Assembly: GCA_017540085.1 (NCBI GenBank) | Contig: JAFYBQ010000014.1 | Coordinates: 1-42,209 of the forward strand | Length of the DNA: 42,209 bases | Source of the DNA: Synergistaceae bacterium | GTDB lineage: Bacteria; Synergistota; Synergistia; Synergistales; Aminobacteriaceae | Direction of reading: 5' to 3' | In this document: in pieces, positions 28,111 through 33,535 of the stretch | Layout: each line of letters opens with the position of its first letter | Position numbering within the stretch: the stretch's first letter is position 1 | Notes under the pieces: generated by a model | What the model saw: the letters and a program-made list of their open reading frames with translations, nothing else | Told to the model about the DNA's origin: nothing | Databases searched by the model: none | Translations under genes and position numbers: made by a program

Positions 28111-28225
28111 TTTGTGATTCTCCTTTTGTGTTATTTGGGATAAGTGAATTGTATAATGATTGTGCCATAAATGGAAATACCAGATATTTCACAAGTCCAT
28201 AAAATTTTTGCGGGGAGTGAGATTA
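28111..28225. promoter_or_regulatory. Divergent promoter region, transporter operon and lysR
   Basis: The 115-bp gap between two divergent starts has a TATAAT at 28152-28157 facing the lysR gene, with at best a weak -35 (TTGTGT at 28126-28131, spacer 20). The leftward promoter of the transporter is not clear. A LysR-type protein would be expected to bind here, but I see no convincing T-N11-A palindrome. Confidence 0.4.
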
Positions 28226-29166
28226 ATGCAGATGTCTCACCTGAGATATTTTGCCGAAATAGCCCGCGTGAAAAATATGACTCTCGCCGCAAAGAATCTC
28301 CATGTCTCTCAGCCGTCGCTTACATACGCGGTAAGAGTTCTCGAAATGAGCTTGGAGTCCCGTTGCTTTTCCGTCATCCTCACTCAATATCGCTGACAGA
28401 GGCGGGCGAAACTTTCGCGGCTCAGGCAGAACGCATAACAGCTTCAGCCGATAATCTCGCGGGAATGATGAAGGGATATGCCGGTCTCACTGCGGGAAAT
28501 TTGCGGCTTGGTGTGCTGTGGATAGGGGGATATATGGAGATATTCACCCTGCTGAATGAGTTTCGCGGAATTTTGCCGGGAGTAACATATGAGCTTTCGT
28601 TTGACGGGAGCGACATACTGATTGACAGCCTGAAAAGAAGATGCCTTCACGGAATTTTTGTTGTGAGTTCGCCAGCGTATCTTGAGAATGAGAAAGATTT
28701 TCACAGCGTCAGAATAAGCGCGGAGGAATACAAGCTCATAATCCCGAAAAGTAATCCCCTGTCGCAGAAATCAGCCGTAAGCATACGTGATTTAGGGCGT
28801 GAGACAATAATAATGCCGTCAGAGAAGACTCTGTTATACCGTCAGTTGAGCGTGATGTTTCAGGCTGAAGGTGTGAGTCCGCGTGTGCTTTGCTCAACGA
28901 GTCAGAGCGACATAGCCGGGCAGTTAGCCGGGGCGGGATTAGGGATAGCGTTTGCGTCATCGACAGTTGCGGGGAAAATTTGCGGGGAAAATTGCAGGGT
29001 GATAGATTTCGGGGAGGGAGCGAAAATTCACAGGATAATATATTTTTTGATGCCGCGTGAATTTCTTGATTACCCGCTGACAAGGGCATTTTTTGAGTTT
29101 GCGGAGAAAAAATTTTCCGGCCATGAAGAAAAATTAGAGCCTCACGATTTCCGCAAGGCTCAGTAA
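28226..29166 (+). pseudogene. LysR-type transcriptional regulator gene with a one-base frameshift
   Basis: The start ATG at 28226 has GGGGAG eight bases upstream and reads MQMSHLRYFAEIARVKNMTLAAKNLHVSQPSLTYAVRVLE, a complete LysR winged-helix N-terminus. At 28344-28346 the frame is lost. Adding one A to the AAA run would give VLENELGVPLLFRHP, exactly the family consensus, and the second frame then runs to TAA at 29164-29166 (LTEAGETF, then a normal effector domain with GNLRLGVLW and a C-terminal PLTRAFFEFAEKKF). The intact protein would have about 313 residues. It is either a recent pseudogene or carries a sequence error. It should control the divergent transporter-oxidoreductase operon. Confidence 0.8.
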
Positions 29167-29167
29167 T

Positions 29168-30337
29168 TTATTCCCTAGTCAGGACAATCTCATACCATCC
29201 GTCAGAAGGCACTGTATATTTCCACCGTATAGATGTCTCACTCTCAAGCGTAATAGTCTGTTCCTGATATGAAGTTCCATTGCTGACGATGAGCCTGTAT
29301 GTGCCGCTGCCGATATAGCTGAAGGCTTTACCGCCCGTGAAAGTGAAGTCGGCCTGCCTTCCCGGAGATTCTGCGACTGAGTATGAGATTCTGACCGCGC
29401 CCCCGCCTTTCGCGCCGCTGTTGATGACGTTATCGCCCGTGAGTGTCAGCGAGAATAACCCGGCGTAATCCCCGTAATATGTCGCAAAATCATTCTGCGT
29501 TACGCTGAGGCCGATTGCGCTGTCGGTTACTTTGGGCGTGTAGGTGAGGTGAGAGACATAGACTCTTCCTGAGACGGTCTGTGATGTGAGTCCGCTGCCT
29601 GAAGTGATTTTCCATGAGCCGGAAATTTGCGGGGGGAAGTCGGATTGTGTGTTAGTGTTGGTGTTTGTGTTGGGAGTCGGTGATGTGTTAGTGTTCGTGT
29701 TAGGGGCGGTGTTGTTGGTGTAGTCATCAGGGTTATAGCTGCTTCCTGCTCTCTTTAGGACGATTTCATAGTGATATGCGCCGAATGAAAGCCCAACGTC
29801 AATATTATCATTGTCTTCTGCCTGCTCAATCCATCGCATTGTATTTTCGTCTTCAAGTTTCATGACAAACTCGCCGTTCATGAGATTGTCATTCGCGCCG
29901 TTGCCGTCAAAATCATCTCCCGCGCCCATTCGGTAAACGCCGCCGCCCTCGTAGGTGAATGCCCCTGTCGTAAACATTATTTCCTGCTCGTAGCCGCTAC
30001 TGTCGTCCGTGAAAAAAACCGCAACCGCAACGCCCATAGCTACGTTTTTGCCTTTAAGTCTCGGAATGTGATAATTTCCTGTCTGTGTCATCTCAATTTC
30101 GACCGACTCATTTTTCCCGGCGTATGTCAAGGCCTGTCTTCCCGATGACCTGTCGCGTGATATTACCGCATAGCCCGATACAATCTCCCACGTTCCATTG
30201 ATTTCCGCAGACTGCCCGCCGTTATTGCCCGCAGAATTTCCGCCTCCGCCGCTCCCGCCTCCGCAGCCGCCCGAAATGAACGCAAGAAACAGTATCAACA
30301 GAAGAATTTTGCACAGTCCATTTTTCCTCAAGCGCAT
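29168..30337 (-). CDS. Predicted lipoprotein with two related beta domains
   Basis: I choose the ATG at 30337 because GGGGAG lies ten bases upstream; a GTG at 30346 is too close to that site. A lipoprotein signal (KILLLILFLAFISGGC) is followed by a Gly/Ser/Asn-rich tether. Two similar domains of about 150 residues follow, each opening with INGTWEIVSG or ISGSWKITSG and closing with a TMRW/SIRW strand and YEIVL. They are joined by an Asn-Thr-Pro repeat linker (near residues 208-235). The domain pair suggests an internal duplication. It is probably anchored in the outer or inner membrane facing the periplasm or surface. I do not know a named family or function. It converges on lysR with a one-base gap. 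Confidence 0.75.
   Translation of the reverse strand: MRLRKNGLCKILLLILFLAFISGGCGGGSGGGGNSAGNNGGQSAEINGTWEIVSGYAVISRDRSSGRQALTYAGKNESVEIEMTQTGNYHIPRLKGKNVAMGVAVAVFFTDDSSGYEQEIMFTTGAFTYEGGGVYRMGAGDDFDGNGANDNLMNGEFVMKLEDENTMRWIEQAEDNDNIDVGLSFGAYHYEIVLKRAGSSYNPDDYTNNTAPNTNTNTSPTPNTNTNTNTQSDFPPQISGSWKITSGSGLTSQTVSGRVYVSHLTYTPKVTDSAIGLSVTQNDFATYYGDYAGLFSLTLTGDNVINSGAKGGGAVRISYSVAESPGRQADFTFTGGKAFSYIGSGTYRLIVSNGTSYQEQTITLESETSIRWKYTVPSDGWYEIVLTRE
29646..29718 (-). repeat. Low-complexity AACAC-type repeat encoding an Asn-Thr-Pro linker
   Basis: On the minus strand, short imperfect units such as AACACTAACACA and ACACCAACA repeat across about 70 bases. In frame they encode NTAPNTNTNTSPTPNTNTNT-like residues joining the two domains of the lipoprotein. 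Such tracts change length easily by slippage and give flexible, extended spacers. Confidence 0.7.
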
Positions 30338-30415
30338 AAAATCCACACTCCCCGCCGAAAAATTTTCATCACAAATTAATATTGCACGACCATACTTAAC
30401 CCCCCTTCACTATGT

Positions 30416-30518
30416 TATAATGAACACAAGCAGGAAGGCGGCAAATTATAGCCGTGCTAAAGTACTGTAATCCTAATCCTACAGACAGTATTTTAGCATA
30501 AGCCTTCCGATTTTTATA
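30416..30518 (+). ncRNA. Candidate structured small RNA (three-way junction) upstream of hslV
   Basis: TATAAT at 30416-30421 is followed by a compact structure. An outer stem GGAAGGC (30433-30439) pairs with GCCTTCC (30502-30508). Inside are a small hairpin, GGC/GCC (30440-30442 with 30451-30453), and a 14-pair hairpin formed by 30455-30468 and 30485-30498 (one G-U pair) with a 16-nt loop containing the direct repeat AATCCTAATCCTA. An alternative inner pairing, CTGTA (30465-30469) with TACAG (30480-30484), competes with the top of the long stem. The outer stem is followed by GATTTTTAT, which could serve as a terminator. No clear -35 is seen. It could also be a transcribed palindromic repeat or an attenuator; no known RNA family is recognised. 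Confidence 0.45.
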
Positions 30519-30742
30519 TCTTCACGCCGTCCGCACAGCTTCACCGCAATTTTCACACATTCCCGAAAAACGCCCGCGCAAAAAATATATACCTCGTCCG
30601 CCTAAGTTGCCGACAGAGAGTCAAACCTAAGAATAATACGCATAAATTTTTCATTTAACCTGTATATTCACAAAATAAATACAAATGAGATAATATGCGG
30701 TCAGCACTCCCAATAAAAATTTCACGGAAGGAATGATATACC
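30519..30742 (+). promoter_or_regulatory. Upstream region and candidate promoter of hslVU-codY
   Basis: The 224 bases after the structured element hold no gene. TTCACA (30667-30672), an 18-base spacer and TAATAT (30691-30696) form a plausible promoter about 47 bases before the hslV start. GGAAGGAA (30726-30733) is the ribosome site. The stretch around 30645-30660 (AAATTTTTCATTTAA) only loosely resembles a CodY box, so I do not claim autoregulation. Confidence 0.45.
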
Positions 30743-31275: not shown

Positions 31276-32727
31276 ATGACAACAGAAATCACAACAGAGA
31301 AAAAGACCCTCAATCCGGAATTAACTCCGGCGAAAATCATCGAACACCTTAACCGCTACATAGTCGGCCAGGACAAAGCAAAACGCTCCGTAGCAATCGC
31401 TCTCCGTAACAGAATCAGGCGGCGCGCCCTTCCTCCCGAAATGGCTCACGAGATTATGCCCAAGAATATTCTGATGGTAGGGCCTACGGGAGTCGGGAAA
31501 ACTGAAATCGCCCGCAGGCTTGCTACCCTGTCAAAAGCTCCGTTCGTGAAAGTAGAGGCCACGAAATTCACGGAAGTCGGCTACGTAGGCAGGGACGTTG
31601 AGACTATCATACGCGATCTCACAGAGTTTGCGGTCTCAATGGTACGCAAGCGAATGATTGAGGGAGTGCAGAAGCCCGCGCTTGAGAAGGCAGAGCAGAG
31701 ACTTCTTGACGCAATGCTCCCGAAGCCTGAGCGGAAATTCTCAATGCCCGACTTCATGAAGGCTTTTTCCGGCAAAGATGACGACGACAACAGCAACAAG
31801 GAAGAAGACCCCTCAGAGGCCGCCCTCGAACAGGAGAAGAACGAGAGAACCCGCAAAAGATTCCTCAAGATGATGAGGGAAGGAAAACTTGACGACCGCG
31901 AAGTAGAGATAGAAATCAACGACAGCACATCGCCGATTTCAGTCTTTGGCGCACCCGGAGTCGATATTATGGGCATGGGCATAAATATCAACGAAATGTT
32001 AGGCGGGATTATGCCCAAGAAGACAAAAAAACGCAGCATGAAGGTGAAAGAGGCACTCAGAATCCTTCAGCAGGAGGAAGCAGAGAAGCTCATTGACACC
32101 GAGGCCATGTCAAAAGAAGCGTTAGACCTGGCGCAGGAAGATGGGATAGTGTTTCTTGACGAGATCGACAAAGTTGTCGTGAAGGGAGGATCATCACACG
32201 GCCCGGACGTTAGCCGCGAGGGAGTACAGCGGGACTTGCTGCCCATCGTTGAAGGCTCTGTGGTTCAGACACGCTACGGCCCCGTGAGGACGGATCATAT
32301 ACTGTTCATTGCCGCCGGAGCTTTCAGCGGGGTGAAGCCGTCAGACCTTATCCCCGAATTGCAGGGGCGATTCCCGATTCGCGTTGAGCTTGAGCCGCTG
32401 ACAATCGAGAACTTACAGCGGATACTGACTGAGCCGGAGAACAGTTTGATTCGACAGTACGAGGCGTTAATATCGACAGAAGGCACAGAGCTGACTTTCA
32501 CGGACGAGGCGACTCAGGAAATCGCAAAACTTGCCCACAAAATGAACTCCGAAATGGAAGACATCGGAGCGCGCCGGCTTCATACCATGATGGAGCAATT
32601 GCTAGAGGAAATCAGCTTCAGCGTCTCAGACATGGCCGAGGAGAAAATCGAAATCACAGGCGAAATGGTGAAGGAAAAACTTTCGTCCCTTGTCGAAAAC
32701 CGCGACATACGCCGCTACCTGCTGTAG
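31276..32727 (+). CDS. hslU: HslU (ClpY) AAA+ unfoldase
   Basis: HslU unfolds substrates and feeds them to HslV. From the ATG at 31276 (2 nt after hslV) the protein has 483 residues: LTPAKIIEHLNRYIVGQDKAKRSVAIALRNR, Walker A GPTGVGKTE (69-77), and the pore-region KVEATKFTEVGYVGRDVE. A charged insertion (I domain, about 130-240, with a DDDDNSNKEED-like acidic run) follows, then Walker B GIVFLDEIDK, a sensor region and the C-terminal RDIRRYLL tail that docks into HslV. The family's typical C-terminus is kept. A longer frame opens upstream at 31162 but lies inside hslV. Confidence 0.96.
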   Translation: MTTEITTEKKTLNPELTPAKIIEHLNRYIVGQDKAKRSVAIALRNRIRRRALPPEMAHEIMPKNILMVGPTGVGKTEIARRLATLSKAPFVKVEATKFTEVGYVGRDVETIIRDLTEFAVSMVRKRMIEGVQKPALEKAEQRLLDAMLPKPERKFSMPDFMKAFSGKDDDDNSNKEEDPSEAALEQEKNERTRKRFLKMMREGKLDDREVEIEINDSTSPISVFGAPGVDIMGMGININEMLGGIMPKKTKKRSMKVKEALRILQQEEAEKLIDTEAMSKEALDLAQEDGIVFLDEIDKVVVKGGSSHGPDVSREGVQRDLLPIVEGSVVQTRYGPVRTDHILFIAAGAFSGVKPSDLIPELQGRFPIRVELEPLTIENLQRILTEPENSLIRQYEALISTEGTELTFTDEATQEIAKLAHKMNSEMEDIGARRLHTMMEQLLEEISFSVSDMAEEKIEITGEMVKEKLSSLVENRDIRRYLL

Positions 32728-32743
32728 GAGGAGTGATTCAGAA

Positions 32744-33535
32744 ATGGTTGACGCGCTGAATGAGCTTCTGAAGAAAACGCGCAGGGTTGGCCGTGCGTTT
32801 CAGGCGAAAAGGGAGGGCGAGCCGCTGAATTATTATCACCTCGCCGAAATGCTGTCGGAGTTTTCCACCGCAAATGTGTATATTGTCGACAAGTCCGGGC
32901 ATCTCTTGGGTTATCACTGGCTGCCCGATTACACGTCAAAAGCACTGTCGGAAAGTTTCCGTGACGGAGTAATGCCGGATGAGTTTGTCGTGAGAATGAA
33001 CCGCTGCCGGGACTCTGAGATTCACGACGAGGACGCGCCATTGTTCGATGATGATTACGAGGGAGAGAAGCCCGAAAAGCATTTGATGTATGTCCCTGTT
33101 ATCGGGGCTGGTGCTGAGAGGCTCGGAACGATAATGCTTGTGCGGGAAAAATCGCCGTTCCATGTTGAAGACATACTGCTTGCCGAATATCTCGGAATGC
33201 TGGCGGGAATTGAAATCCTCAACGAGCGCGCCAAAGTCTTGGAGGAGACAGCAAGAAGCCGGCTTAGTGTGCAGATGGCTATGCGGGCTTTGTCGTATTC
33301 GGAGCTTGAGAGCATGAAGCATATCATAGCCGAACTGCGCGGGCCGGAAGGTGTTGCGATTGCGTCAAGAGTCGCTGACAGAGTCGGGGTAACGAGAAGC
33401 GTTATCGTGAACGCACTGCGGAAACTTGAGAGTGCCGGATTGATTGAGAGCAGGAGTCTTGGCATGAAGGGGACGTACATAAAGATTCTGAGTCCGTTCC
33501 TGCTTGAGTATCTCGACAGGCCGAAAGGTGATTGA
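32744..33535 (+). CDS. codY: GTP- and branched-chain-amino-acid-responsive regulator CodY
   Basis: CodY is a global repressor that senses nutrient state through branched-chain amino acids and GTP. The 263-residue protein has an N-terminal GAF domain (about 1-150; LNYYHLAEMLSEFSTANVYIVDKSGHLLGY) and a long linker helix. Its winged helix includes ASRVADRVGVTRSVIVNALRKLESAGLIESRSLGMKGTYIKI, almost the Bacillus text. The ATG at 32744 has AGGAGG twelve bases upstream, overlapping the hslU end. The order hslV-hslU-codY repeats the Bacillus clpQ-clpY-codY operon without the recombinase xerC in front. A terminator follows. Confidence 0.95.
   Translation: MVDALNELLKKTRRVGRAFQAKREGEPLNYYHLAEMLSEFSTANVYIVDKSGHLLGYHWLPDYTSKALSESFRDGVMPDEFVVRMNRCRDSEIHDEDAPLFDDDYEGEKPEKHLMYVPVIGAGAERLGTIMLVREKSPFHVEDILLAEYLGMLAGIEILNERAKVLEETARSRLSVQMAMRALSYSELESMKHIIAELRGPEGVAIASRVADRVGVTRSVIVNALRKLESAGLIESRSLGMKGTYIKILSPFLLEYLDRPKGD

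Follow-up and report, generated by a model that had tools for sequence, protein, structure and literature searches.

Facing promoter pairs with mirrored RNA folds in Fretibacterium: a proposed cis-antisense control module for surface-protein mRNA leaders

Antisense control of a leader RNA is known from plasmids, in the RNAI/RNAII pair of ColE1 and the CopA/CopT pair of IncFII. In type I toxin-antitoxin loci, such as hok/sok, ldr/rdl and ibs/sib, multi-copy chromosomal cis-antisense RNAs are directed against mRNA leaders. RNAI has been used as a model of cis-antisense RNA (PMC11012335). Convergent-transcription switches have been treated in a model of scbA/scbR (PMC3134472) and in modelling work (PMC4519249), in both of which convergent transcription can give bistability in models; it has also been described in connection with memory (PMC12720443). 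Comparative screens have yielded candidate structured RNAs from intergenic regions (PMC6429828, PMC8632094, PMC8040213, PMC2864571). In the open literature, hardly any regulatory RNA was found described for the Synergistota, a phylum with oral and gut members.

The family of facing promoter pairs reported here, from the gut and oral bacteria of the genus Fretibacterium, is previously undescribed. The copy analyzed lies in a window, that is, the whole stretch of 42,209 nucleotides under study, and its features are listed in Table 1. With a probability of roughly 0.6, the element is a cis-antisense control module for the leader of a surface-protein mRNA.

Table 1. Features of the element and its surroundings (positions in the window unless given as contig:position; rc, complement on the minus strand).
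Feature	Position	Strand	Evidence or remark
sRNA, ~88 nt, three-way junction	30428..30515	+	fold z, covariation on 10 members, full-length R1/R2 model matches; exact 5' and 3' ends predicted
P+, sRNA promoter TATGTTATAAT, extended -10 (T.TG.TATAAT)	30411..30421	+	45/45 aligned members
O, 5' strand of sRNA outer stem, GGAAGGC	30433..30439	+	minus complement (rcO) pairs with S in mRNA leader
Outer stem O:O', 7 bp	30433-30439 with 30502-30508	+	fold
M, small hairpin GGC...GCC, 3 bp (30440-30442 with 30451-30453)	30440..30453	+	fold, alignment
B, 5' arm of long stem	30454..30468	+	minus complement (rcB) pairs with A in mRNA leader
C, 3' arm of long stem	30485..30499	+	fold; invariant at promoter positions
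O', outer-stem 3' strand and T-rich tail, terminator-like	30502..30519	+	CTCCTTTGC-TTTT in relatives
C-, second promoter TATGCTAAAAT (T.TG.TANAAT)	30490..30500	-	45/45 members; predicted mRNA start ~30482
Predicted 5' leader of lipoprotein mRNA	30338..30482	-	antisense to sRNA 5' region; minus-specific fold of 30378-30482
A, 3' arm of leader outer stem, ATGGTCGTGC on minus	30384..30393	-	10-bp duplex with rcB, two pairs being G-U
S, C-rich spacer (G-rich on minus)	30394..30410	-	pairs with rcO in leader's long hairpin; minus-strand MFE
Lipoprotein gene, syntenic partner	29168..30346	-	signal peptide, lipobox GGCGGG; start codon probably 30337
hslV promoter-like site TTCACA-16-GATAAT, separate from element	30667..30694	+	sequence; relatives' homology ends at 30630
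Six clear own-genome copies	C14:30416, C9:18000, C9:36458, C10:17309, C16:19457, C37:122375

The initial annotation had proposed a 7-pair outer stem that encloses a small hairpin and a long hairpin, between a TATAAT and a T-rich tail. The plus-strand fold is the three-way junction so described, with a minimum free energy of −33.6 kcal/mol and a z-score of −7.2 for the trimmed RNA (30428-30515) and −5.7 across 30416-30518, and 0 of 200 shuffles matched its stability. The TATAAT was found at 30416-30421, and the tail, TTTTTATAT at 30511-30519, lies 3' of the outer stem; a T-run follows this stem in nearly all copies and is weaker in the window (GATTTTTATAT). The long hairpin is present with a 16-nt loop containing AATCCTAATCCT, but its stem has 15 bp (30454-30468 with 30485-30499) rather than 14. 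The competing CTGTA/TACAG pairing, put forward as a possible switch, is found in the window and its two close relatives, yet the wider family has not retained it, and it therefore does not look like the main switch; it was rejected as such because it is confined to these sequences. A mini-ORF (GTG CTA AAG...TAA) was rejected as protein-coding since its reading frame is broken in G031, one of the close relatives.

In the two uncultured Fretibacterium genomes G010 and G031, with 94-96% identity, the plus-strand fold is identical to that of the window, and the changes lie in loops or the unpaired 5' tail or are converted to G-U pairs on the plus strand. The minus-strand fold is weaker in this comparison and collapses in G031. 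These features point to an RNA of the plus strand. A first covariance model (R1), built from three sequences and used to search 188 Synergistota genomes, gave matches restricted to the same genus; one weak match (L082, in G019) is probably false. In an alignment of ten diverse members, 93.3% of the cells are paired, changes on both sides occur at 12 of the 25 pairs, double-change cells number 32 against 11.6 in shuffles, and the covariation score was reached by 0 of 500 shuffles, where all these counts lean towards the model's structure because the alignment was fitted to it. Each of the ten members, folded alone, adopts the same shape, and compensatory changes are seen in all three stems among the genus relatives. 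The covariance search suggested in the initial annotation thus gave clear covariation in the genus, with the long stem included. A second model (R2) enlarged the set, and 45 members were aligned, leaving out the weak matches without the promoter (L082, L103, L106). In L103 (G007) and L106 (G020), the RNA model matched a conserved GAAAAGGCCGCG... stretch that is probably unrelated. The RNA had been called unrecognised, and in Rfam 15 no family exceeded its gathering threshold at the window region or at 12 related loci. At the level of sequence, these comparisons confirm a plus-strand three-way-junction RNA with its own promoter and a terminator-like end, as found in a discrete sRNA.

As shown in Table 1, a promoter motif is present on each strand in every aligned member. 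P+ lies just 5' of the RNA and, like segments A and S, outside R1 and R2. For C-, the hexamer is TATAAT in 27 members, TAAAAT in 14 and TACAAT in 4. The column conservation of arm C reaches 2 bits exactly at T.TG.TA.AAT in the minus reading, while its pairing partner B is variable; C lies within the search models, so that its conservation is partly selected, yet B and O also lie within the models and vary. The fixation of C at the promoter positions while B varies indicates that P+ and C- are near-identical facing extended -10 promoters. They are separated by ~67 nt in the window and by 52-92 nt across members, and judging from their motifs both probably fire. Segment A was rejected as a -35 element, since its spacing to the -10 ranges from ~16 to 23 or more and leaves no fixed -35, and as the -10 of the partner gene, since the hexamer is not conserved.

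Segment A lies at about −40 and repeats B in inverted orientation; the two covary across copies and also within types (0 of 300 permutations). The segment 30378-30482 folds with an energy of −34.2 (z −3.6) on the minus strand and −16.0 (z −0.5) on the plus strand. Across the 45 members, the duplex energy of rcB with A is −13.9 in the minus reading against −9.7 in the plus reading, and that of rcO with S is −10.8 against −8.6; the plus-strand duplexes O×O' and B×C have energies of −13.6 and −7.9. For none of the four duplexes did any of 2000 permutations do as well, and the negative controls gave no signal. In 19 type I leaders, rcB:A is paired in 96.5% of cells on the minus strand, compared with 79.5% when read as plus and 24-43% when slid. 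The differences between A and B are tolerated as G-U pairs in 57 cases on the minus strand and 10 on the plus strand, counts that are not independent, given the common ancestry of the paralogues. The target leader thus carries a conserved structure, with strand-specific pairing in rcB:A and rcO:S, which indicates that one DNA encodes two overlapping RNAs, with O:O' and B:C on the plus strand and rcB:A and rcO:S on the minus strand. We know of no described design in which the same DNA segments enter different conserved RNA structures on each strand and a stem arm of one RNA serves as the promoter of the other.

Being inverted copies that flank P+, A and B could also be bound by a single transcription factor that makes a DNA loop between the facing promoters. 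This regulatory-DNA reading is given very little credence, as the two segments change in step from copy to copy of one genome, and the 57-to-10 bias of their differences favors what RNA pairing on the minus strand tolerates. If only the plus RNA mattered, which is the most stable and best covarying structure, it would be a trans-acting sRNA, and the minus promoter motif and mirrored pairing would be DNA-level or ancestral duplication effects. We regard this as unlikely: A and S, upstream of P+ and outside the sRNA, show covariation with B and O, their pairing is better on the minus strand, and arm C bears a promoter conservation that is not needed for pairing. The strand-specific conserved pairing of the leader would also suit a riboswitch or thermosensor for the surface gene, with the plus RNA as a by-product. 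However, the plus strand carries an invariant promoter of its own, its outer stem resembles a terminator with TTTT after it, and the leaders serve many unrelated genes, which is unusual for a metabolite riboswitch, so that this explanation appears very improbable.

Several further features of the leader were noted. A with the following T-run was rejected as a leader terminator, because the T-run begins ~8 nt past the stem and is unconvincing. A promoter nearer to the gene, downstream of A and before the start codon, may exist; if used, it would give a leader without A and rcB, which would speak against the cis-antisense module. On the minus strand, 30335-30400 contains AAGGGGGG and then ATGGTCGTG..., which may form an upstream ORF of five codons (MVVQY). 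Elsewhere, segment A is often RTG-TGY after a G-rich stretch, a candidate upstream ORF starting from RTG with a G-rich ribosome site. In many copies, an AT-rich AAAATTTTT separates A from the ribosome site (30347-30380 in the window; L077, L079, L091, L121), and by sequence likeness it resembles CodY-type AT-rich palindromes.

The partner gene is on the opposite strand in 34 of the 36 copies with a callable upstream gene, again not independent counts among paralogues, and P+ is usually 54-90 nt from its start codon. An export-type hydrophobic start was called by script in 28 of 35 callable partner genes, and by eye in two more that the script had mis-picked, where the script's background of 45/84 is crude and contains the partners themselves. 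The partners include GGCGGG lipoproteins and GFTLVELL pilin-like proteins, and a few are not exported (methyltransferase-like, acetyltransferase-like); most of those with a full reading frame are exported or enzyme-like proteins of 88-476 aa. The lipoprotein in the window matched no Pfam family. The leader predicted from C- overlaps the 5' region of the sRNA, an overlap that depends on C- as the putative mRNA start. The downstream genes differ in most genomes, which indicates that the unit follows its minus-strand partner. The RNA does not stand alone: it belongs to an element that uses both strands and sits at the 5' end of a gene on the minus strand.

The element had also been placed upstream of hslV, and the gap of ~400 bp is as stated; the link, however, is incidental, as RNA and hslV are on different contigs in both nearest relatives (G010 and G031). 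The block shared with these relatives runs from 30585 to the lipoprotein gene, and their homology upstream of hslV stops at 30630. An hslV leader or riboswitch was rejected because of this lack of linkage. Elsewhere in the neighborhood, a LysR-type regulator at 28160-29166 (+) is apparently split over two frames by a frameshift or assembly error, its HTH part sharing the frame of 28160-28396 and its substrate-binding part lying in 28171-29166. The gene after hslVU (32690-33535, +), from its reading and the literature, resembles the GAF-wHTH CodY-like protein known from Synergistetes (PMC9318921).

Across 43 genomes of the genus, the facing-promoter pattern matched ~300 times and a reversed-pattern control 12 times; in the 145 other Synergistota genomes the figures were 32 and 14, which is near background; these counts are sums over genomes in which symmetric copies are counted twice. 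The window's own genome has 13 matches, six of them clear copies, and the five besides that of the window are of a more diverged type missed by the RNA models. Diverged copies in this genome (L165, L169, L171 and L175, on C9, C10, C16 and C37) are of a GGACAAG...CTTGTCC type with symmetric twin promoters, and among the genes next to them are ones for a TerD-like protein and for a short HTH-like one. With dozens of matches in some genus genomes, and with neighboring genes that differ between species, the copies could be taken for a MITE or another small mobile element dispersed in the genus. The near-constant position 5' of a divergent minus-strand gene argues against this despite the dispersed multi-copy state, and the internal segments covary as RNA pairs, so that a mobile element seems very improbable. 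Searches for a viral, phage or plasmid origin gave no matches, and this origin was rejected.

In the cis-antisense reading, P+ would make the ~88-nt sRNA, a three-way junction of outer stem O:O', hairpin M and long stem B:C that ends at the T-run. C-, facing P+ from inside the sRNA gene, would make the mRNA of the neighboring exported-protein gene, and its leader would be antisense to roughly the first 55 nt of the sRNA, forming a mirrored junction with rcB:A as the outer stem and rcO:S as the long hairpin. Each sRNA would pair perfectly with its own leader only, and this pairing would break the rcB:A and rcO:S stems. The resulting duplex would be exposed to RNase III, or access to the region before the ribosome site would be altered, which would set the expression of that one surface gene; the collision of two polymerases would add to the control. 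The matching three-armed folds of the sRNA and the mRNA start on opposite strands suggest that each sRNA controls the adjoining gene. The sRNA and the leader presumably meet, and the net effect on the gene is presumably repression; taken alone, the sequence may be compatible with RNase III repression, altered access before the ribosome site, polymerase collision or an ON/OFF toggle. It is conceivable, though doubtful, that each copy is a self-contained RNA toggle, in which facing promoters and mutually antisense, mirror-folded RNAs turn the gene ON or OFF independently of its paralogues. If this were true, the genus-wide set would create surface diversity among the cells of one clone, with no need for DNA to be rearranged. 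The cis-antisense reading would imply a large genus-wide antisense RNA family tied mainly to genes for surface lipoproteins, pilin-like and other exported proteins, and it offers a testable proposal that many surface proteins are controlled one by one in these bacteria.

The element resembles the candidates from comparative screens in being a structured RNA found by comparative genomics of intergenic regions, and differs from registered ones in having no Rfam 15 match at a gathering score; it may still correspond to an unregistered motif in those reports (PMC6429828, PMC8632094, PMC8040213, PMC2864571). Like convergent-transcription switches, it has facing promoters, whose predicted overlapping transcripts could repress each other; unlike those gene pairs or models, it would yield a small structured RNA from one promoter, and the transcripts would overlap in a conserved RNA fold. 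It shares with type I toxin-antitoxin loci a multi-copy, chromosomal state and a predicted cis-antisense relation to an mRNA leader, whereas it is partnered with exported proteins, lipoproteins and pilin-like ones among them, mostly of 90-480 aa, rather than with small hydrophobic toxins, and no relation to these loci was found in Rfam. As in RNAI/RNAII and CopA/CopT, a short, multi-stem, terminated antisense RNA is predicted to arise from a promoter inside the target leader and to act against the 5' region of that leader. In contrast to these plasmid systems, the element is without a plasmid replication gene and is chromosomal, with many paralogues per genome, mostly at exported-protein genes, and it combines near-identical facing extended -10 promoters with mirrored three-way junctions on both strands.
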